NCBI GenBank assembly: GCA_003058525.1
Contig: QBVD01000041.1
Location: forward strand, 62,001-126,000
Source: a gamma proteobacterium symbiont of Ctena orbiculata
GTDB taxonomy: Bacteria > Pseudomonadota > Gammaproteobacteria > Chromatiales > Chromatiaceae
DNA length: 64,000 bases
Direction: 5' to 3'
Every line of letters starts with the position of its first letter. Positions within the stretch are counted from its first letter, which is position 1. The notes below the pieces were generated by a model, which was not told where the DNA came from, did no database searches, and saw only the letters and a list, made by a program, of their open reading frames with translations. The translations under genes and the position numbers were made by a program. Shown here one piece after another: positions 37,765-47,484 of this stretch.

Positions 37765-38314
37765 AATAGCCTCGCACCTCATGCAGCAGTTTGAGCCGTA
37801 GCGGTCCCTTCAGCCAGGCCTCCATACCTGTTGCGGTCATCCATTGGTCATCGCTCTCGATGCGTACCGGGCCATCGGTTGTAGCAAATGAATCTTCAAA
37901 GTGCAGAGTCAAATCCTGCGTGACAATATGCAGCGGTGCCGTGTCCGCGCCGCTAGGACGATCGATAACCACACCCCCGGCAAGATGGAGACTCTCTTCA
38001 CTGCGTCTGATCAGACCATCCTGCGCCCGCATCTGCAAAGGGGGGCTCTGTTGGTTGTAATGCCAGAGAACCGGTTGTTGCAGTTCGGTAATCCCGGTTT
38101 TTTCAAAATGCCTCATCCCCCGAGACTGCAATCGCTGTTTGAGTGCACCCTGTTCATCGTAGGTTTGCACAACCAACTCCTCGGCGTAGGAATCGGGATC
38201 GTGTCTAACACCCGGCGTTCGGGCCTCCTCCGGCTGCATCAACCTATTCATCCACCAGCCCAGGCTCAGCAGCGCTGCAGCTATAAAAAAGAGACCGATT
38301 AATTGACGCTTCAA
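37751..38314 (-). CDS. lptC: LPS export protein LptC
   Basis: 187 aa. A single N-terminal membrane helix (LIGLFFIAAALLSLGWWMN) and a periplasmic jellyroll; conserved features are weak, but position between kdsC and lptA is decisive. Overlaps kdsC by 4 nt. Confidence 0.93.
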   Translation of the reverse strand: MKRQLIGLFFIAAALLSLGWWMNRLMQPEEARTPGVRHDPDSYAEELVVQTYDEQGALKQRLQSRGMRHFEKTGITELQQPVLWHYNQQSPPLQMRAQDGLIRRSEESLHLAGGVVIDRPSGADTAPLHIVTQDLTLHFEDSFATTDGPVRIESDDQWMTATGMEAWLKGPLRLKLLHEVRGYYEFQ

Positions 38315-38832
38315 AGATAGCTGTCCAACTCAGTCTTAAGATTACCCTGGGCCTCGAGCACCATCTCGCAAACATCTCTGGCGGCGCCACGCCCACCGCT
38401 GTGGCGTGTCTGCCAGTGAGCATGCTGGAGAACAAACGGATGGGCGTCATTCACGGCGATGGCCAATCCGACACGCCGCATGATGGGCAGATCGACGACG
38501 TCATCACCCACATAGGCTACCTGGTCATCCGAAAGGCCCAGTTTATTACGCAACTCCTCATAGGCCGGCAGTTTGTCCAACTTACCCTGATAGACATGCT
38601 CGATACCCAGACTCTCCATACGGATACGCACGACCTCAGAGCTTCGTCCGGTGATAATGCCGATTACCACACCCGATTTCTGCAACATCTTCATACCGTG
38701 ACCATCCCTGGAGTTGAACGACTTATACTCCTGACCGTCGTCACCAAGAAACAGACCACCATCGGTCAGCACACCATCGACATCAAAAATGACCAGTTTC
38801 ACACCACTGGCCTTGGCATGTATATCCTGCAC
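38311..38832 (-). CDS. kdsC: 3-deoxy-D-manno-octulosonate 8-phosphate phosphatase
   Basis: 173 aa. HAD phosphatase: nucleophile motif VIFDVDGVLTDGGLFLG, then FNSRDGHGMKM, IITGRSSEVV and YVGDDVVDLPIM. Makes Kdo for the LPS core. Confidence 0.96.
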   Translation of the reverse strand: MQDIHAKASGVKLVIFDVDGVLTDGGLFLGDDGQEYKSFNSRDGHGMKMLQKSGVVIGIITGRSSEVVRIRMESLGIEHVYQGKLDKLPAYEELRNKLGLSDDQVAYVGDDVVDLPIMRRVGLAIAVNDAHPFVLQHAHWQTRHSGGRGAARDVCEMVLEAQGNLKTELDSYL

Positions 38833-38845
38833 TTTCTCTACCCCT

Positions 38846-39844
38846 CTACATCACACCGGCTCTAAGCAGATCATGCATATTGAATGCACCGATCAGTTGC
38901 TGTTTTTCATCAATAACCAGCAGGCCGTTAATCTTTTTCTCGTCCATCATCTGCAAGGCTTCTGCTGCCAACGTCTCAGGTGATACTGTCAGGCAGTCGC
39001 TGGTCATCACCTCACTCACCTTGACATAGTGTATATCGATAGGCTTGTTCAAGGTACGCCGCAGATCGCCATCGGTATAGACTCCGGCCACTCCACCCTC
39101 CGGATCCACTATCGCGGTCATACCCAGGCCTTTGGCCGACATCACTTCCAACGCCTCATGCAATGTGGCATCGAGACCTACCGACGGCAAAGACCCGTCC
39201 GCATGCATTATATCACTGACCCGCAAAAGCAACCGCCTTCCCAGGGTGCCTCCCGGATGGGAGAGGGCGAAATCCTTGGCGGTAAAACCCCGTGCCTGCA
39301 GCAATGCAACCGCCATCGCATCTCCCATCACCAATGCCGCAGTCGTGCTTGATGTCGGGGCCAAGCCCAGGGGGCAGGCCTCCTTCTGAACGCTGACATC
39401 GATATGTACCTCGGATTCTCTTGCCAGCGTCGACTCAGGTTTTCCGGTCATGGCGATCAAGGGCGCACCCAGTCGCTTAAGCAGGGGCAGGATGACCAGT
39501 AACTCGCCGGTCTCCCCTGAGTTGGACAGCGCCAGGACCACATCCTGAGGAGTTATCATACCGAGATCACCGTGGCTGGCCTCACCCGGATGTACAAAAA
39601 AGGCCGGGCTGCCGGTACTGGCCAGGGTCGCAGCGATCTTATTGCCGATATGACCCGATTTGCCCATTCCGATAACGACAATCCTGCCCTGGCAATGAAG
39701 AAGATAACTGCATGCCAGGGCAAATTCATCACCCAACCTGGGGATCAGCGATTGGACTGCATCAGCCTCAGTTTCGATCACAGCTCTGCCCAGATCGATC
39801 ATCCGAACCATCTCTTCTTTAGTTGGACTTGTGGCTTTGGTCAT
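38846..39844 (-). CDS. kdsD: D-arabinose 5-phosphate isomerase
   Basis: 332 aa from the ATG at 39844 (a GTG at 39856 is possible). SIS domain (VVIGMGKSGHIGNKIAATL; SNSGETGELL) followed by two CBS domains. First step of Kdo synthesis, from ribulose 5-phosphate. Confidence 0.96.
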   Translation of the reverse strand: MTKATSPTKEEMVRMIDLGRAVIETEADAVQSLIPRLGDEFALACSYLLHCQGRIVVIGMGKSGHIGNKIAATLASTGSPAFFVHPGEASHGDLGMITPQDVVLALSNSGETGELLVILPLLKRLGAPLIAMTGKPESTLARESEVHIDVSVQKEACPLGLAPTSSTTAALVMGDAMAVALLQARGFTAKDFALSHPGGTLGRRLLLRVSDIMHADGSLPSVGLDATLHEALEVMSAKGLGMTAIVDPEGGVAGVYTDGDLRRTLNKPIDIHYVKVSEVMTSDCLTVSPETLAAEALQMMDEKKINGLLVIDEKQQLIGAFNMHDLLRAGVM

Positions 39845-39882
39845 TAGACAACTCACTCACATAAGGTTGAAACATCCATAGA

Positions 39883-40851
39883 TCAGGCATTCACCAGTGA
39901 CACAAAGAGCAGAGACTGATAGCCAATGAAGCAGAGCAGCAGGAGTAATCCTTCCAGACGGTTGATACGCCCCTGTTTACCCAGACCGTGCCCCATAAAA
40001 AAGAGGAACATGGTAAGCACCATCATCACCGGAAGATCACGCTCCATGACCTCAGGCGAATAGGCTCCTGGCGCCACCAAGCCCGGGATACTCAGTACCG
40101 CCAGCAGATTATAGAGATTGGAACCGATGACATTGCCGATGGCGAGGTCATCCTCCCCTTTCAGAGCGCTGGTGATACTGGCAGCCAACTCAGGCAGGCT
40201 GGTGCCGATGGCAACGATGGTCAAACCGATAATGACATCACTGACGCCCAGTGCAGATGCCACATTCGTGGCACCCCAAACAAGCAGTCGGGAACTCAAA
40301 AGCAGAAATATCAAGCCTCCCAAAAGCAGAACAATCGCCTTTTGAGTAGGTATATCGTGCGGAATCTCTGCATCAAACTCTCCGGCGATGGGGTCTGCAG
40401 CCCCGGTCTTGGCGGTATAGATCATCCATCCCAGCACTGCCACCAGGGTCACGACCAGGATTACCCCATCGAACTGGTTCAGTTCACCATCCCACATCAA
40501 AAGAAAAGCCATCGCCGAGACCGCTAGCAGTAACGGATACTCACGTCTCAAGACGCTGGAGTGGACGGAAAGGGGGATCAACAGGGCAGTGAAACCGAGT
40601 ATCAGCCCGATGTTGGCGATATTGGAGCCGATGGCATTGCCGATAGCCAGGCCCGGGTTGCCGTTGAAGGACGCCATGGTTGAAACCAGCACTTCTGGCG
40701 CTGAAGTGCCAAAACCGACAACAGTGAGTCCTATCAGCATGGGTGAGACACCCAGATTATCTGCCAGGGCAGCCGCCCCACTGATAAACCGGTCGGCACT
40801 CCAAACGAGTACAACCAAGCCGACAAGTATCGCAACACTGAAAAGAAACAT
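39883..40851 (-). CDS. Calcium/sodium antiporter, CaCA family (YrbG-like)
   Basis: 322 aa. Ten or so membrane segments in two inverted halves, each with the exchanger alpha repeat: VVGFGTSAPEVLVSTMA and IVAIGTSLPELAASITS, each followed by AIGNAIGSNIANIG / AIGNVIGSNLYNLL. Head of the Kdo/LPS block, a conserved position in gammaproteobacteria. Confidence 0.94.
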   Translation of the reverse strand: MFLFSVAILVGLVVLVWSADRFISGAAALADNLGVSPMLIGLTVVGFGTSAPEVLVSTMASFNGNPGLAIGNAIGSNIANIGLILGFTALLIPLSVHSSVLRREYPLLLAVSAMAFLLMWDGELNQFDGVILVVTLVAVLGWMIYTAKTGAADPIAGEFDAEIPHDIPTQKAIVLLLGGLIFLLLSSRLLVWGATNVASALGVSDVIIGLTIVAIGTSLPELAASITSALKGEDDLAIGNVIGSNLYNLLAVLSIPGLVAPGAYSPEVMERDLPVMMVLTMFLFFMGHGLGKQGRINRLEGLLLLLCFIGYQSLLFVSLVNA

Positions 40852-40990
40852 AAAATATTTATTTAATATTCAATATGATACAAAAGCCAGGGGCTGAATG
40901 AATGTATCTCTTGACTGTCATTAGCTGGCTATTGATCGGCTACTGGGGAGCTGAGGGCAAAGATAATAACAGAAAGACACAGCGATTGGC

Positions 40991-41019
40991 TTGACAAGAA
41001 TCTTAGTATATTAGATAAT
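40991..41019 (+). promoter_or_regulatory. Near-consensus sigma-70 promoter of the candidate small RNA
   Basis: TTGACA, 17-nt spacer, GATAAT: 11 of 12 consensus bases. Transcription would begin near 41026. Confidence 0.8.
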
Positions 41020-41025
41020 TCATAC

Positions 41026-41108
41026 ATACTGATGCATTGAGCGTCAGTATTCCTCCTTTGGTGGTAAATATAGATTCAGCGCGACATCCCCCTGTCGCGC
41101 TTTTTTTT
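41026..41108 (+). ncRNA. Candidate orphan small RNA, about 83 nt
   Basis: Starts about 7 nt after a near-consensus -10 box. A 10-bp 5' hairpin (ATACTGATGC / GCGTCAGTAT, loop ATTGA, 41026-41050) begins at the predicted first base. A mostly unpaired linker with TCCTCC (41051-41078) follows, then an 8-bp GC-rich hairpin (GCGCGACA / TGTCGCGC) and eight T residues. No start codon with Shine-Dalgarno is inside. The downstream rplM has its own promoter, so this looks like an independent RNA gene rather than a leader, although rplM attenuation is not excluded. Confidence 0.65.
41079..41108 (+). terminator. Rho-independent terminator of the candidate small RNA
   Basis: Stem GCGCGACA / TGTCGCGC, 6-nt loop, T8. 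Confidence 0.9.
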
Positions 41109-41177
41109 GCCGCACGCCCGGTCATCGTCGAGAACCGACACGCCTTCGACTCAGGCCTAAATATCATGGATTAGGTC

Positions 41178-41206
41178 TTGTCTCCCATTCCTGGATCATG
41201 TAATAT
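41178..41206 (+). promoter_or_regulatory. Candidate promoter of rplM-rpsI
   Basis: TTGTCT, 17-nt spacer, TAATAT, with a GC-rich discriminator (CCGCCG) as in ribosomal protein promoters. The leader to the rplM ATG would be about 43 nt. Confidence 0.6.
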
Positions 41207-41255
41207 CCGCCGTCTTTTTCAAGGCATTTTTAGTTCTCCATCGGAGCGACATCGG

Positions 41256-41684
41256 ATGACTACTGTAAGCGCGAAGCCGGCAGAGGTACGCCGCAATTGG
41301 TATCTCGTGGATGCAACAGACAAGACCCTGGGTCGTCTGTCCACGGAAATTGCCCGTCACCTGCGCGGTAAACATAAACCGGAATATACACCTCACGTCG
41401 ATACCGGCGACTATATCGTCGTTGTCAACGCCGAAAAGATCCGTGTAACCGGTAACAAACTGAGCGACAAGATGTACCATCATCACACCGGTTTCATCGG
41501 CAATCTGAAATCCATCAATCTGGAGAAGCTGCTGCAGAAGGCCCCGGAACGCGCCATAGAACACGCGGTCAAGGGCATGATGCCGAAAAACCCGCTGGGC
41601 CGCGCCATGTTGAAAAAACTGCGCGTCTTCGCCGGTCCCGAGCACACCCATCAGGCCCAGCAGCCCCAGCCGCTGGACATCTGA
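41256..41684 (+). CDS. rplM: 50S ribosomal protein L13
   Basis: 142 aa, same length as in E. coli. Starts [53 protein letters not shown] and [20 protein letters not shown] are diagnostic. The ATG at 41256 has GGAG 10-13 nt upstream. In E. coli L13 represses its own operon. Confidence 0.98.
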
Positions 41685-41707
41685 TCACTTAAATTAGAGT
41701 AACGAAC

Positions 41708-42097
41708 ATGGCAGACAAGCATATCACCACAGGACGCCGTAAAAGTTCAACCGCCCGCGTCTTCCTGACCGCAGGCAGCGGCAATATCGTGGTCAACAAC
41801 CGTCCCCTTGACGAGTACTTCGGCCGGGAGACAGCCCGCATGGTGGTTCGCCAACCACTGGATGCCACCGAAACCCGTGACAAGGTCGATATCAAAGTGA
41901 CGGTCAACGGCGGCGGCACCACCGGCCAGGCAGGCGCCATTCGCCACGGCATCTCGCGCGCCCTGGATGCCTACGACGAGTCCCTGCACGGCACTCTGCG
42001 CAGAGCCGGCTTCCTGACCCGCGACGCCCGCGCCGTGGAACGTAAGAAGGTCGGTCTGCACAAGGCCCGCAAACGTCCTCAATACTCCAAACGCTAA
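41708..42097 (+). CDS. rpsI: 30S ribosomal protein S9
   Basis: 129 aa. [36 protein letters not shown] and the basic C-terminal tail [19 protein letters not shown] that reaches the P site. Co-transcribed with rplM (23-nt gap); tRNA-Gln follows 24 nt later with no terminator between, so the tRNA may be cut from the same transcript. Confidence 0.98.
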
Positions 42098-42121
42098 GCC
42101 TGACTCTCACGAGCCTGCAAC

Positions 42122-42195
42122 TGGGGATTCGTCTAACGGCAGGACACCGGACTCTGACTCCGTATGTGGAGGTTCGAATCCTCCATCCCCAGCCA
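42122..42195 (+). tRNA. tRNA-Gln (anticodon CTG), CCA encoded
   Basis: Acceptor stem TGGGGAT / ATCCCCA, discriminator G, encoded CCA; anticodon loop CTCTGAC gives CUG; T arm GGAGG-TTCGAAT-CCTCC. Its final 19 nt are repeated twice downstream at 176-bp spacing. Confidence 0.96.
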
Positions 42196-42352
42196 ACAGC
42201 ATATTAAAGCCCACGCTATGTGGGCTTTTTTTACTGTCACTACAAAGCTGCCCGGATGGAGGATTAGAACCGATAAGAGGTTCGACGTCTGAGCAACGCG
42301 AAGACGAACAGCACAAGCTGGCCCCGTAGGGGTGAGACCCGACGGGCCGAAT
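42177..42352 (+). repeat. tRNA-linked tandem repeat, unit 1 (176 bp)
   Basis: Runs from the last 19 nt of tRNA-Gln through terminator 42206-42232 to the base before the next copy of the tRNA end. Differs from unit 2 at about 3 of 176 positions. Contains the 5' part of a foldable element at 42254-42364. Confidence 0.95.
42206..42232 (+). terminator. Terminator in repeat unit 1, just after tRNA-Gln
   Basis: Stem AAAGCCCAC-GCTAT-GTGGGCTTT followed by further T residues, 11 nt after the tRNA CCA. Confidence 0.9.
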
Positions 42353-42364
42353 AATCCTCCATCC
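42254..42364 (+). ncRNA. Foldable RNA element in repeat unit 1
   Basis: A 13-bp perfect closing stem (GGATGGAGGATTA / TAATCCTCCATCC) encloses three internal hairpins: GAACC/GGTTC, CGTCT/AGACG and GGCCC/GGGCC. The 3' strand of the closing stem is the copied tRNA 3' end, so the 5' strand is also complementary to tRNA-Gln itself. Whether it is transcribed past the upstream terminator is unknown. Confidence 0.5.
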
Positions 42365-42528
42365 CCAGCCAACAGCATATTAAAGCCCACGCTATGTGGG
42401 CTTTTTTTACTGTCACTACAAAGCTGCCCGGATGGAGGGTTAGAACCGATAAGAGGTTCGACGTCTGAGCAACGCGAAGACGAACAGCACAAGCTGGCCC
42501 CGTAGGGGTGAGGCCCAACGGGCCGAAT
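42353..42528 (+). repeat. tRNA-linked tandem repeat, unit 2 (176 bp)
   Basis: Exact period of 176 bp from unit 1. One of the three substitutions changes an A-U to a G-U pair in the closing stem of the next element, leaving the fold intact. Confidence 0.95.
42382..42408 (+). terminator. Terminator in repeat unit 2
   Basis: Identical copy of 42206-42232. Confidence 0.85.
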
Positions 42529-42540
42529 AATCCTCCATCC
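42430..42540 (+). ncRNA. Foldable RNA element in repeat unit 2
   Basis: Same architecture as 42254-42364, with a G-U wobble in the closing stem. Confidence 0.5.
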
Positions 42541-42634
42541 CCAGCCAATACAAAACCCGCCATGTGCGGGTTTTTTGGTGCCTGTAACAGAATCCTCTAG
42601 ATGGAGGATGAGAAGCTCCACCGAGGTTCACTAT
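42529..42634 (+). repeat. Third, decayed copy of the tRNA-linked repeat
   Basis: Begins with the same 19-nt tRNA end (AATCCTCCATCCCCAGCCA), has a different terminator, then a diverged GATGGAGGATGAGAAG...GAGGTTC segment that aligns with the start of the foldable element. Confidence 0.75.
42552..42576 (+). terminator. Terminator in the third repeat copy
   Basis: Stem AAAACCCGC-CATGT-GCGGGTTTT with a six-T run. The sequence differs from the two upstream terminators but its position in the unit is the same. Confidence 0.85.
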
Positions 42635-42669
42635 AAGGTTAGGTCAAGCTAACCTCATGAGCTTTATCA

Positions 42670-42940
42670 CTAGGGCCTGTTAACACTAATCCAATCGGCC
42701 CTGCTGGGACTATTTTTTTGTCCAGCAAGGCAGAATGAGCGAGGTGTAGTTACGCTACATGAGCGAATGATAACGCCGCTGGGCGGAAAAATAGTCCCAG
42801 CCCTTCGGGTTGCGCCTGAAAAAGCGCCACTCGGCGTTGCTTGTCGTTCATTTGGAGTGACCAAACCTCTCTCCTCGCGCCTTGATTGGCGTTTTTTCAG
42901 GCACAACAGGGCCGATTGGATTAGTGTTAACAGGCCCTAG
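42670..42940. mobile_element. MITE with perfect 34-bp terminal inverted repeats
   Basis: 271 bp, no transposase. Arms 42670-42703 and 42907-42940 are exact reverse complements beginning CTAGGGCCTGTTAACACTAA. The element is flanked by direct ATCA, a possible target duplication. Inside are nested inverted repeats: CTGGGACTATTTTT at 42704-42717 with its complement at 42786-42799, and GCCTGAAAAAGCGCC near 42815 with a one-mismatch partner near 42889. Partial ends occur at 2119 and perhaps 53041. Confidence 0.9.
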
Positions 42941-43110
42941 ATCACTCCCACCACAGACGGACAGAATGATCAGAATTATAGCGAAGAGCTTAAACCCGCC
43001 AGGATTCCCATTAATATATTCCCTTTCTTGCAGGGCGGGTCAGCAAGGGCGCTCAGCAGGTAATCACCATTGACCTAAACCGCCGGCGCCCTGATTTTGC
43101 AACCTAGCTC

Positions 43111-45411
43111 TTAGTAGAGATAAACCGCCCCGGCGTATGGACTGGTATCATCTTCCTGATCGGCGCTATCCCCCGAATTCTCGAATGGGGCGCCCACAAC
43201 CAGGGTTGTTCCATCACTGGAGATGCTCAGGCTATCGCCGAACTCATCGTTTAATTCGGGACAGAATGAACAACCCGGCTGTGGCCATCCCGCATCCGTA
43301 TTCGAGGCCTTGACATAGGAGTGCTGAAACCAGCCGGTGTCGCCGCGTGTAAACATGTAGACCGCACCTGGCGGAGAGGTCGCGCTGTCGTCTGCCTGGT
43401 TGCGGTTGACGCCCTGACCGACAGAGTCCTCAAAAGCCGCGCTCACGGCCAGGCTGTCCCCGTCCCCGGAAAGGGCCACTGTATTGCCAAAACCGTCGTT
43501 CGGATCGGCATTCGATGCCTTGAAGTATGCGGTTTGCGTCCATACATTGGCCTGACGCTCGAACAGATAGGCCGCACCGGAGTTCTCCCTGCCATTGTTG
43601 GAGAAGCTGCCATTGACTCCGATGGCCGATGAATCCTCTTTCCAGACACCCACGGCCAGGGTATTGCCGTCCGCGGAGATTGACACGTCGTTGCCGAATT
43701 CATCACCGCTGTCGGTTGCCGATGCCTTGAGATAGGCCTGCTGCGTCCAGCTAGCGCCGTCATAAGCGAATACATAGGCCGCACCGGCTCCCCGCGCGTC
43801 ATTGTTTGTTTGATCGCCATTAATGCCGGTTGCGGATGAGTCTTCTCCCGGAGCGCCGATTGCAAGCGTCGAGCCGTTACCGGAGAGTTCCAGGGCGGCG
43901 CCGAACTCGTCCGGACCCTCGCCGCTGGTTACCTCGAGGGTCGCCTGCTGAGCCCAACCACTGCTACCCTGGTCGAACACGAAGACACCTCCACCGCTGA
44001 CCGCCAGCCTCGTCCCGCTGCTGGAGAGTGATACCTGTTTACCGAAATTGGCGCCTGACACAGGTGCGGATGCCTTGATATAGGCCTGCTGGGCCCACGC
44101 CGAGCCGGAAAGGTTGAAGACATACACCGCTCCGGATCTCGACAAGGAGTTATCTGCCTGGTTGCCGTCGACGCCCGAAGCGGCCGAATCCTCGAATAGC
44201 GCACCGACGGCCAGTGTCTGTCCATCATCAGAGAGCGACACGGCAGAACCGAATTTGTCACCGGCCTCGGCGTTGGACGCCTTGATGTATGTCTGTTGAC
44301 TCCAACTGTCGCCATCTCGACTAAACAGATAGACTGCGCCGGAACTCGTTGCCATCTCGGTATCGACGACCGGGTCACCATCAATCCCTGTCGCTGTGGA
44401 ATCCTCTTCAGGCGCGCCTATCGCCAGTGTTGAGCCATCACCGGAAATTGCGACACTGCTGCCGAACTGATCCTCTGAGCCGATGAATGAGGGTTTGAGA
44501 TAGCCGATCACATCCAGTATCAGCGAGAAGGCTGTGACAGGTGTCGAATCGGCGCAATCCTCACTGGCGCTGCAGGCCTGAACCATGTAGCTGGCATTCA
44601 CCCAGTCGGTCAGATGGACAGAGATCACCGCGTCCACAGTGGTTGCGGTGATGTTGTCACCCACTTGGCTGAAGCCGGAGATCCCATCCGGATTGTACAG
44701 CAACCGGTAGTGATCAACCCCCACGTCGTTCCAGCTGAAGCGCAACAGCTTGGGCCCCGCCACGCTGACACTCGCGGTGAGATCCGCGTCGGGCGGGCAG
44801 CTGATCTGGACGTCGGTTACAGTGGCCCCGTTAAGCGTTCCAGTCCCATTCACCACTGTACACGTCTGGCCAGTGGGTTGGGTGGCGATCGTCACCGTAT
44901 AGGTATTGCCATCTTCCAGTTGGGTGGTAAAACTGAATTCACCGCTGGCCGTGATCGTAAGATCGTCACCGCCGTTGTTTTGCAACACCAGGCCATCACC
45001 CGCCAGACCGCTGACGCTGCCGCCAATGCTGAAGAATCCGGTATTGTCGGTACATGTGATGGTGATATTGGTGACGTCAGCAGCGGCAATTGTACCGCCG
45101 CCATTAGCCACCGCACAGCTTTGCTCGGCGGGCTGGGTAGCGATGGTTACCGCGTATGTGCTGCCGTCGCTCAGCTCAACGGTAAAACTGAAACTGCCGT
45201 CACTGTTTGGCGACAGATCATCACCACCATTATTCCGCAATACCAGTCCGCTGCCCGTCAGCCCCGTAATGGTGCCGCTTATTGTATAGGTGGTTCCCGT
45301 CGTGTCTCCATCATCACTACTGCTACCACCACCGCCGCCGCCGCAGGCGGTCAGCAACAACAGCTGCATTAAAATCACTACTTTGGCCGCCCATATCAGA
45401 TATCGATTCAT
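43111..45411 (-). CDS. FG-GAP/beta-propeller repeat lipoprotein
   Basis: 766 aa. The lipoprotein signal peptide ends LLLTACGGGGGG. Two similar Ig-like modules of about 85 residues follow (ISGTITGLTGSGLVLRNNGG; IGGSVSGLAGDGLVLQNNGG), then a fibronectin-like segment, then about seven FG-GAP-type blades (DxFGxxVxLSxDGxTLAVGA, with AVYLF ends; Asp-rich loops suit calcium). Probably exposed on the cell surface; ligand unknown. Monocistronic, downstream of the MITE. Confidence 0.85.
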   Translation of the reverse strand: MNRYLIWAAKVVILMQLLLLTACGGGGGGSSSDDGDTTGTTYTISGTITGLTGSGLVLRNNGGDDLSPNSDGSFSFTVELSDGSTYAVTIATQPAEQSCAVANGGGTIAAADVTNITITCTDNTGFFSIGGSVSGLAGDGLVLQNNGGDDLTITASGEFSFTTQLEDGNTYTVTIATQPTGQTCTVVNGTGTLNGATVTDVQISCPPDADLTASVSVAGPKLLRFSWNDVGVDHYRLLYNPDGISGFSQVGDNITATTVDAVISVHLTDWVNASYMVQACSASEDCADSTPVTAFSLILDVIGYLKPSFIGSEDQFGSSVAISGDGSTLAIGAPEEDSTATGIDGDPVVDTEMATSSGAVYLFSRDGDSWSQQTYIKASNAEAGDKFGSAVSLSDDGQTLAVGALFEDSAASGVDGNQADNSLSRSGAVYVFNLSGSAWAQQAYIKASAPVSGANFGKQVSLSSSGTRLAVSGGGVFVFDQGSSGWAQQATLEVTSGEGPDEFGAALELSGNGSTLAIGAPGEDSSATGINGDQTNNDARGAGAAYVFAYDGASWTQQAYLKASATDSGDEFGNDVSISADGNTLAVGVWKEDSSAIGVNGSFSNNGRENSGAAYLFERQANVWTQTAYFKASNADPNDGFGNTVALSGDGDSLAVSAAFEDSVGQGVNRNQADDSATSPPGAVYMFTRGDTGWFQHSYVKASNTDAGWPQPGCSFCPELNDEFGDSLSISSDGTTLVVGAPFENSGDSADQEDDTSPYAGAVYLY

Positions 45412-45481
45412 ACCAGGTTCCTGTATCCGTTTTAACTGTACGGTCTTGACGATAAGACCATATATTGCATCGTCAACTATC

Positions 45482-45892
45482 TCAGTAACTTGATACGTTT
45501 TCTACGATAGGTGGGTGGTAAATGATCTGAATAGTGGTGCCGTCGGGATCGAAACAGTAAAAACTGCGAGCTCCGTCACGGTGTGTGCGCGGCGCATTGC
45601 GCATCCTCACCCCGGCCGCCAGAAGATAGTCGTACCAGGCATCCACCTGATCGGGATCGGAGAGGAAGAAACCGATGTGGTCGAGGCGTTGTGCAGCCTC
45701 GTCCAGATACTCCGCCGCTGTCTTGTGCAGGGCAAGGTTGTCCGATCCCGATGTAAGATAGAGATTGTCCTGGTCCGGCCGCCATTCGACCTCCATTCCC
45801 AGCAGCTCGACGTAGAAGTGCTCGCTGGCGGCCATGTCCCTGATATTCAGGGCGACATGGCGCATGCCGAGATGTTGCGACGGCTGTTTCAT
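45482..45892 (-). CDS. VOC family (glyoxalase-like) protein
   Basis: 136 aa. Two beta-alpha-beta-beta-beta modules: MRHVALNIRDMAASEHFYVELLGMEV and LDHIGFFLSDPDQVDAWYDYL, ending SFYCFDPDGTTIQIIYHP. Metal-type His/Glu ligands appear present, but the substrate cannot be inferred. Overlaps the next upstream gene by 4 nt. Confidence 0.85.
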   Translation of the reverse strand: MKQPSQHLGMRHVALNIRDMAASEHFYVELLGMEVEWRPDQDNLYLTSGSDNLALHKTAAEYLDEAAQRLDHIGFFLSDPDQVDAWYDYLLAAGVRMRNAPRTHRDGARSFYCFDPDGTTIQIIYHPPIVENVSSY

Positions 45893-47484
45893 GAGAGTAC
45901 CTCGTTCAGGGCCCGTTCCCAGGTCTCCCGGTCGCAGGCGCGTTGCACCACCAACGGCAGGGCCACTGCACCATGGGCCAGTAACTCTTCGTGTAACGAA
46001 CGGAGCGTGGACCCCGGCCTTTGCTCGAGCTGTCGCTGGCAGAGATGTTCAATCAATTCGGCCCCCAACAGGGCCATGAAGGCGTCCGTCGGGCGCCTTG
46101 AGATCGCCGTCAGGCTGACTTCCGCCCAGCAGGGTATGTCTGAAAGCCGTTTCAGCCGTTCCAGAGCCTGACGGCTGTTGATCTCACCGGCATGAAACTC
46201 CAGGTCTATCGTTGCCTGTTCGGCCAGGGCCAGACGTCTCTGATAGAGCGACAGACGATCATTTTCGGTAAAGTAACCGCGCTCCTCCAGGATTCGGCTC
46301 ATGTAGTGGGCCCACCCCCTTTTGAAAGCGGCGGAGGGGTTGATCTGACGCACCAGACTGTGTGCCGAGACCCCACCGGCCCAAGCCAGATAGTGACGCC
46401 CCGCCCAACTGCTGTAGAGATTGCGCATTCGAATGGCGGAACGGCTCTCGCCACCCCCGACCTGCTGATCATGGGGTATCAGAAAGACCCCTCCCTGCTG
46501 CGTGCGCAGATAGCTGCCGCAATCAGGTTGCCTGAAGCAGCTGTCGGTAATGCGGAATGCCAGAGGCTGTGGGGAGTCGGGCAGGATTTCGAGCCGCTGC
46601 AGGAATGACCTTAGACCAGCCGCCTCCTCCCGATAGGCCTGCAATCTGTAGTCACCGTTGAGCTGCTTGCCGTTGTCCTGTTTTACAGCCTGCAGCGATA
46701 TCCCCTGCCGTTCCAGCTCTTCGTAGGTCTGGTGCAATCGCCTGCGGGCATAGGCCAGGGCATCTTCTACCGGGATATCGATCTGATCGCGGTGACGCAA
46801 CAGCCAGGCGAGCAGTTCCTTTCCGCAATCGGCGGTTCCCGAGGCTGACGGGGTCAGATCTTTGATCATCGCCAGCTTGAAATCATCCACGGCTTCCGCT
46901 GCCTGGCTGCTGAGGGACTGCAAACGTCCCTTGTCGGCACAGCATTCATGGGTCTGCGGAAGATCCCTGCCAAGCCGTTTCAGCCAGGGCACGCCCTTCT
47001 CCGCTGTCTCCAGGGCATCGGCCAACCACAGAGTGGAGACCAGTCCCGGAAGCTCTCCCAGCCGCCCTCTGGCATCCCGCAGGTAGTTGGGGGTCTTCTC
47101 CAATACTCCCATCAGGGCTTCGCACAACTTCTCCGGCTGGCGCACTACCAACTCCTGGAGCAGATGCAATGGGAGATAGCGGGCGGGATCCCGATGGCGC
47201 CAGTCGTGCTCGAGCAGCAAACGGTGCTCAACCATTGCGGTACCGTAGATCAGCTGCAGATCAAGCTGACGATCGGCATCCAGGGCATCATAGTCCAGTT
47301 CCTTGAGGCTCACCAGGAGATTACTGATCAGGCTTGCCAGCGCCCCCATATCGTCGTCCCCATCGGCTGCCAGCAGCCCCTCGTAGCCCGGCACCGATGC
47401 ATAGACAGCCGCCACCGGATGAAAACGGAACCACACCCTGTAGTAGTCTGCGATCAGACTGTCAAAGGCGGCGGCCTCATTGCT
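45889..47484 (-). CDS. DUF885-like protein with degenerate metal site
   Basis: About 531 aa from MSNEAAAFDSLIADYYRVWF (a slightly upstream ATG at 47493 is possible). Overall layout and the GWAHYMSRILEERGYFT block match the DUF885 group, whose members usually carry HExxPGHHLQ. At the matching place this protein reads NLYSSWAGRHYLAWAG, losing the first His and the Glu. It is thus predicted to be non-catalytic or to work differently. Overlaps the OsmC gene by 8 nt and the VOC gene by 4 nt, so the three form an operon. Confidence 0.7.
   Translation of the reverse strand, partial: SNEAAAFDSLIADYYRVWFRFHPVAAVYASVPGYEGLLAADGDDDMGALASLISNLLVSLKELDYDALDADRQLDLQLIYGTAMVEHRLLLEHDWRHRDPARYLPLHLLQELVVRQPEKLCEALMGVLEKTPNYLRDARGRLGELPGLVSTLWLADALETAEKGVPWLKRLGRDLPQTHECCADKGRLQSLSSQAAEAVDDFKLAMIKDLTPSASGTADCGKELLAWLLRHRDQIDIPVEDALAYARRRLHQTYEELERQGISLQAVKQDNGKQLNGDYRLQAYREEAAGLRSFLQRLEILPDSPQPLAFRITDSCFRQPDCGSYLRTQQGGVFLIPHDQQVGGGESRSAIRMRNLYSSWAGRHYLAWAGGVSAHSLVRQINPSAAFKRGWAHYMSRILEERGYFTENDRLSLYQRRLALAEQATIDLEFHAGEINSRQALERLKRLSDIPCWAEVSLTAISRRPTDAFMALLGAELIEHLCQRQLEQRPGSTLRSLHEELLAHGAVALPLVVQRACDRETWERALNEVLS

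Follow-up and report, generated by a model that had tools for sequence, protein, structure and literature searches.

The tandem repeats behind a tRNA-Gln gene of a gammaproteobacterial symbiont of Ctena orbiculata belong to the RtT family (Rfam RF00391), to which rtT of the Escherichia coli tyrT locus also belongs. We consider it probable that RtT is a small, non-autonomous mobile element of four hairpins, which acts at the level of DNA and is lodged in a duplicated tRNA end, after which the number of units changes. A broader version, to which we give an even chance, is that RtT is one landing form of a phylum-wide mobile four-hairpin DNA element that inserts after GA in tRNA loops, in ERICs and in other dyad-symmetric DNA; at tRNA ends it would be accompanied by a host-matched inverted copy, so that the unit is complementary to its own target in a guide-like manner. 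Both readings are built on direct observations: the anatomy of the array, its family membership, the tracking of the host tRNA by the inverted copy, the dispersal of the core, the occurrence of empty ERICs beside filled ones, and a difference in unit number within one species. An earlier note on this DNA had described the repeats, and had missed the inverted copy of the tRNA end, its tracking of the host and the dispersed, apparently mobile four-hairpin remainder.

In the window, by which we mean the whole analysed stretch of 64,000 nucleotides, an ORF (41708-42097) that we take to encode ribosomal protein S9 ends 24 bp upstream of tRNA-Gln(CTG). The features of the array are given below, where R3 denotes a covariance model of the core alone that was built in this study.

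42122-42195, + strand: intact tRNA-Gln(CTG), the last 18-19 nt of which are the repeated end (ARAGORN; Rfam tRNA 59.2 bits)
42206-42232, + strand: intrinsic terminator directly after tRNA-Gln, at the start of unit 1 (terminator scan; 42206-42235 folds at -13.6 kcal/mol)
42254-42271, + strand: inverted copy (antisense arm) of the tRNA-Gln 3' end in unit 1, 94% complementary to 42171-42188
42277-42285, + strand: T-arm 5' strand GAGGTTCGA of unit 1, ending in TTCGA and followed by the core
42286-42353, + strand: core 1, 68 nt, four hairpins (R3 match 35.7 bits, E 7.8e-5; fold)
42242-42371, + strand: Rfam RtT match 1 (53.3 bits, gathering score 45)
42354-42371, + strand: copy 1 of the tRNA-Gln 3' end with CCA, 18/18 identical
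42382-42408, + strand: terminator of unit 2 (terminator scan)
42430-42447, + strand: inverted copy of the tRNA-Gln 3' end in unit 2, 89% complementary to 42171-42188
42462-42529, + strand: core 2, 68 nt, four hairpins (R3 match 40.5 bits, E 1.1e-5; fold)
42418-42547, + strand: Rfam RtT match 2 (53.0 bits, gathering score 45)
42530-42547, + strand: copy 2 of the tRNA-Gln 3' end with CCA, 18/18 identical
42548-42629, + strand: relic of an RtT unit of another subtype (by-eye likeness to the start of the complete single unit of genome G350 and to a relic in G372)

A 20-nt string, made up of the last 19 nt of tRNA-Gln and one further base, recurs exactly at 42177, 42353 and 42529, with spacings of 176 and 176. 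This bears out the two near-identical 176-bp units with about three differences that had been described; units 42177-42352 and 42353-42528 differ at three positions (42263, 42337 and 42341). Read 5' to 3', a unit is composed of the tRNA-Gln end from the T loop to the CCA, the terminator, the inverted copy, GAGGTTCGA and the 68-nt core, and is followed by the next tRNA-end copy. The core site within the unit corresponds to the T-loop position TTCGA^ATCC.

The third unit had been taken for a decayed copy of the same repeat. It resembles a different subtype, the complete form of which is the sole unit of G350 behind the same tRNA. The relic retains a terminator-like hairpin with a T run (42553-42576) and an antisense arm and T-arm (42599-42629), while the search with R3 finds no third core in the window, and none after the relic's T-arm. 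The statement that each unit has its own terminator holds for the two complete units; the terminator-like hairpin of the third is absent from the list of the terminator scan. A minus-strand ORF of 162 aa (42133-42621) lies antisense to tRNA-Gln and the repeats and is likely spurious, though annotation pipelines could call it. Just behind the relic, at 42670-42940, there is a MITE-like repeat of 271 bp with terminal inverted repeats of about 42 bp that are 93% complementary; it is absent from the corresponding place in G372, a genome of the same species.

The Rfam search proposed in the earlier note places both units above the gathering score of RF00391, and with E values of about 2e-9 each in 851 bases the matches are not due to chance. 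The parallel drawn there with E. coli tyrT was therefore right, and R3 matches four cores at E. coli tyrT/tyrV as well as both cores of the window. Where convergent or shared duplication had been proposed, the shared family stands; convergence with tyrT is rejected, since both loci belong to one Rfam family. "tRNA-end copying" is apt as a description. By eye, the tyrT locus of E. coli K-12 has the same anatomy, with tyrT and tyrV separated by one unit and a further three following tyrV. The 3' end of tyrV lies at 1287244, and the annotated rttR (1287066-1287236) terminates a single 178-bp period beyond it, at the CCA of a copied tRNA end. The two loci thus share their family, a similar period (176 bp in the window, 178 bp in E. 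coli), the copied terminal nucleotides of a tRNA, the inverted copy and the R3 core. They differ in the intrinsic terminator that stands ahead of each core in the window, unlike in E. coli rtT. They also differ in the tRNA, since the ends and inverted copies in the window match tRNA-Gln and not tRNA-Tyr.

The gene preceding the repeats is tRNA-Gln(CTG) and not tRNA-Tyr as at tyrT. A preceding tRNA-Tyr is not taken as defining for RtT because the loci found with the Rfam model have host tRNAs of six amino acids (79 tRNAs); the arrays are not tyrosine-specific. In the accessible text of PMC4986893, RtT-family RNAs are detected in Actinobacillus pleuropneumoniae and placed by Asn and Lys tRNA genes; therefore, the occurrence of RtT beyond tRNA-Tyr was, on that text, partly known already. 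The same text cites an effect of RtT on the stringent response in E. coli. From the portions available of other papers, RtT RNA is up at low temperature in Thioalkalivibrio (PMC8092127), a tandem GA motif is present in RtT (PMC7657543), rtT RNA is listed among variable-number repeat changes in Salmonella (PMC2658671), and, in enterobacteria, the BIMEs that precede gatY, rbfA and cvpA contain rtT-like sequences (PMC2965389). We found no core around gatY, rbfA and cvpA in the three corresponding MG1655 regions at E up to 1, and the BIME link is unconfirmed there. No description of host-tracking RtT arrays or of a mobile RtT core was recognised in the accessible part of the literature on rtT, tyrT, tRNA-end repeats and ERIC, most subscription papers lying outside that part.

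Three RtT arrays are found by Rfam in the window genome, behind tRNA-Gln, tRNA-Tyr and tRNA-Arg, and each copies the end of its own tRNA. Of 369 genomes from the class, 66 have an RF00391 match at E 1e-3 and 24 have one above the cut-off; among 14 control genomes, the sole match is in E. coli. The 109 RF00391 loci examined exclude an 80-base match at the end of a contig (G264:C155) and four loci that repeat the arrays of the window genome. They contain 79 tRNA genes with a copy of their own 3' end downstream (last 18 nt, up to two mismatches, within 260 bp): 34 for Ser, 27 for Gln, eight for Tyr, seven for Arg, two for Glu and one for Val. The 53 other tRNAs in the 109 loci are without such a copy, and the loci lacking one include contig ends, decayed units and orphan cores. 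In L043 (G048:C182, reverse complement, about 297-830), a tmRNA gene has behind it an RtT unit with a copy of the tmRNA 3' end, and in L289 a core lies near a tmRNA.

An inverted copy is present in most units and varies with the host tRNA. Across 78 arrays (a further one contained N bases and was excluded), the segment ahead of the core pairs with the end of its own tRNA at a mean of 13.4, as against 9.2 with the ends from other arrays. The observed mean was reached in none of 10,000 permutations, and again in none of 10,000 when permutation was confined to the same amino acid (mean 11.2). The inverted copy is best for its own tRNA, or tied, in 51 of the 78 arrays; for the Tyr arrays the difference between own and other is slight (13.1 vs 12.7). 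The extent of the arm varies, many arms reaching into the acceptor strand and others covering the T arm alone.

Comparison within the genus shows how the locus varies. The last 18 nt of tRNA-Gln are identical in all 22 genomes, and complete units stand behind it in 13 of them. There are two units in the window genome, G371, G375 and G369, and one in the same-species genome G372 and in G350, G373 (one mismatch), G387, G388, G376, G379, G380 and G381. A partial or decayed unit remains in G370, G378, G384, G385 and G386, no unit was seen behind tRNA-Gln in G382 and G383, and the locus is cut off by a contig edge in G374 and G377. Unit number thus differs within a species, with two in the window genome and one in G372; the earlier note had proposed comparing repeat number among close relatives. 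By eye, the counterpart of the relic behind the window array is the complete unit in G350, and the relic also corresponds to the one in G372.

These relatives also bear on the concern, voiced in the same note, that the repeat is a duplication made in assembly. Nothing was counted in favour of this reading, which is hardly credible: units 1 and 2 differ at three positions, and arrays of one or two units are found in other genomes of the genus, including the one-contig assemblies of G372 (one unit and the same relic) and its congener G375 (two units).

The core is far more widespread than the arrays. From 101 units, 96 distinct cores were obtained, of roughly 60-90 nt; a few lengths fall outside this range where a second or a degraded GGTTCGA made the cut ambiguous. 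When fitted, the alignment of 131 matches supports four hairpins: 23 of 24 pairs show changes on both sides, and 94.6% of cells are paired. Covariation is 0.500 compared with 0.119 after shuffling, in an alignment that was fitted to this structure and leans to it; when partners are displaced by 1-3 columns, no more than 48.2% of cells pair. R3 matches occur in 18 of 18 genomes picked for their RtT matches, and in 18 of the 22 genus genomes at E 0.01. Among 398 genomes drawn from across the phylum, 77 have matches at E 1e-4, including members of other classes.

Outside the arrays, cores are seen by eye inside extra partial copies of tRNAs that lie beside the intact tRNA. In L063 (three 213-bp units) and L062, both in G122, the core is in the T loop of the extra copy; in L025 (G264), cores occupy the D loop and the T loop of one tRNA-Ser copy; and in L114 (G311), the core is in the anticodon loop. 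In L063 and L114, more than 100 bp of flank appear by eye to be duplicated as well. The hosts in L070, L076 and L151 are tRNA-like, with no intact copy in the part viewed. Palindrome loops hold cores in L134 and L155, and in L304 and L306 cores follow what look by eye like stop codons.

Some cores interrupt genes. In L117, removal of the core as cut by the model restores the reading frame, with no target duplication; the joined peptide has no Pfam match, and its label as Y2-transposase-like rests on by-eye likeness to L171. With the core taken as one base longer, L171 likewise regains its frame, and the peptide that spans the junction matches PF04986 at 1.7e-21. In L233 (G386), a gene that looks HsdR-like by eye is interrupted by a core at an approximately placed target. 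Cores in L233, L169 (G000) and L306 (G677) lie in or next to genes that by eye resemble type I restriction-modification genes.

Several arrangements of cores were also noticed. Direct tandem cores without a spacer, about 75 nt apart, occur at G631:C2:184358-184582 and G561:C1:5141566-5141711, and two back-to-back cores on opposite strands lie within 166 bp in L162 (G311). In L115/L133 (G122), L267-L273 (G385), L310-L314 (G446) and L316-L323 (G766), the core is found in the middle of larger dispersed repeats with many near-identical copies. In the most amplified sets (G122, G385, G446, G766 and G592), the core is embedded in larger repeats that may carry it along.

ERICs with internal insertions of about 70 bp were reportedly described by Wilson and Sharp in 2006. 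In G592 and G703, the insert in some ERICs is the core described here. An exact-pattern search counted 38 uninterrupted ERICs in G592 and 27 in G703; G628, G537 and the reversed control gave none. One uninterrupted copy is identical at 107 of 127 positions to the E. coli ERIC consensus as printed in the available part of PMC2759123. In the filled ERICs (L325 and L326 in G592, L299 in G703), the core follows GGGTGA or GGGT(GA). The first base after the site differs between filled and uninterrupted ERICs, which may reflect the change or loss of a single base; a second insert in L325 is by eye a decayed core. Both filled and empty sites are thus found for dispersed cores, in the ERICs and in the Y2 transposase gene, the empty ones being paralogous copies of the same repeat or gene and not the same site in a sister strain.

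The target of the core is consistent, with GA at the left flank. Among 43 distinct flanks outside T-loop contexts, 33 left flanks end in GA, where 2.7 would be expected at 1/16, and 32 right flanks start with A; this set comprises hand-picked cores outside RtT arrays, in which duplicates of the last 10 nt were counted once and members of the same repeat family remain. The 10 left flanks without a terminal GA include five with CA, from two genomes. The T loop of the host tRNAs is TTCGAAT in 76 of 78 cases, as against 25 of the 49 other tRNAs ending in CCA in the same loci, which fits a GA^A site.

REP/REPIN elements are dispersed palindromic DNA without genes and are associated with RAYT transposases. 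The core resembles them in being dispersed, palindromic and gene-less, and differs in that cores lie beside only one of 30 Y1-family loci examined. Matches to Y1 transposases were present in 18 of 18 genomes examined (57 matches in total), and a mobilising enzyme was not found among the 30 loci; on this count, a Y1/RAYT transposase beside the cores was rejected. In the accessible part of PMC2229807, an ERIC is described as a MITE of 127 bp that has terminal inverted repeats and duplicates its target, whereas the core alone is without ERIC ends. On the same source, YPAL/RU-2 is likewise a small hairpin element with targets that span or adjoin dyad symmetry, studied by comparing empty and filled sites, and unlike the core it is about 168 bp long and duplicates 3-26 bp of its target. 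YPAL was rejected as a relative of the core: its printed copy scores 35, compared with a mean of 29.75 and a maximum of 45.5 in 40 shuffles, and so has no similarity.

An alternative that we think unlikely is a functional RNA, in which the RtT transcript folds as a mimic of a tRNA end with a 3' CCA and is regulatory, selection on the RNA stem keeping the inverted copy matched. The predicted fold of unit 2 has a 13-bp closing stem, a GAACC/GGUUC hairpin, the four core hairpins and a free CCAGCCA tail (z -6.05). That of unit 1 is similar, with the last two core hairpins merged (z -7.10) and a closing stem in which 42254-42266 pairs fully with 42352-42364. Such an RNA would agree with the position of the E. 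coli rttR end at the copied CCA, with the tracking of the tRNA by the inverted copy even within one amino acid, and with the RtT RNAs reported in the available text for Thioalkalivibrio (PMC8092127) and A. pleuropneumoniae (PMC4986893). The mismatches in the stems point in both directions. On the fitted core alignment, G-U exceeds A-C (63 vs 28, p 0.0003), an RNA-like sign, although the alignment itself favours G-U. Under symmetric scoring (passed by 88 of 120 cores for H1, 113 of 120 for H4, and 71 of 78 arrays for the antisense arm), there is little G-U excess: G-U and A-C number 11 and 8 in H1, 6 and 6 in H4, and 47 and 37 in the antisense arm (p 0.33). The acceptor and T stems of the 117 tRNAs in these loci have 30 G-U and no A-C, a biased control, as ARAGORN favours G-U over A-C in calling tRNAs. 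Intrinsic terminators stand between the tRNA and each core in the window, and would argue against a high yield of discrete RNA from the tRNA transcript. No promoter-like site was found at 42000-42950, which is weak evidence since the scan found none for tRNA-Gln either. The decayed or absent units of several congeners and the disruption of genes by cores also count against a functional RNA. We favour a DNA-level explanation, because G-U exceeds A-C only slightly in the stems and every core has a terminator ahead of it.

At the level of DNA, mutational copying alone might have generated the array: template switching at the tRNA end would produce the inverted and direct copies, and quasi-palindrome correction would match them, with neither selection nor mobility. 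The nearly symmetric G-U and A-C mismatches of the antisense arm and the differing extent of the arm among tRNAs agree with this, and the origin and matching of the inverted copy may perhaps be explained in this way. As a complete account it is improbable, as it leaves unexplained a conserved four-hairpin core in 77 of 398 phylum genomes and the cores in ERICs, transposase genes and tRNA loops. Elements that integrate at tRNA genes have direct repeats from the T loop to the CCA. The direct repeats of the array have the same span, and could be the att sites of a miniature element that uses a tyrosine integrase to insert at tRNA 3' ends. This is very doubtful: the 176-bp unit is too short for an integrase, inspection by eye of the ORFs at 38000-47000 revealed no such gene, the same core occurs at targets other than tRNAs, and the inverted copy is left unexplained.

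The preferred reading, that of a mobile hairpin element, can be set out as follows. A gene-less family of small hairpins would behave as mobile, with sites mostly after GA and often in or beside dyad-symmetric DNA, the core presumably moving by its own transposition-like event. Insertion into the sole copy of a tRNA would be expected to break it, while a core lodged in a duplicated tRNA end would give rise to an RtT array. Once identical tRNA ends are present, whole units could be gained or lost by recombination with the functional tRNA kept intact. The inverted copy might have arisen by template switching and later correction, which is a guess. RtT RNA would be secondary here, because a terminator stands before every core. 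Several of the results above count against this reading: the enzyme search at Y1 loci found none, the most amplified cores may travel with larger repeats, 10 of 43 left flanks lack the terminal GA, the empty sites are paralogous, G-U exceeds A-C on the fitted alignment, and the inverted copy is best or tied for its own tRNA in 51 of 78 arrays and not in all. In addition, RtT RNA is an annotated ncRNA in E. coli, and the RtT arrangement recurs at several tRNA types and a tmRNA, for which a purely selfish account needs a target preference.

These results recast rtT: it is not a curiosity of tyrT, and appears instead as a host-matching array at many tRNAs and a tmRNA, built around an apparently mobile small element. 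A route is thereby opened to the mobilising enzyme and to the means by which the inverted copy stays matched to its tRNA. There is also reason for caution in annotation, since RtT ncRNA annotations may mark DNA elements, and ORFs antisense to the arrays, such as that at 42133-42621, may be spurious.
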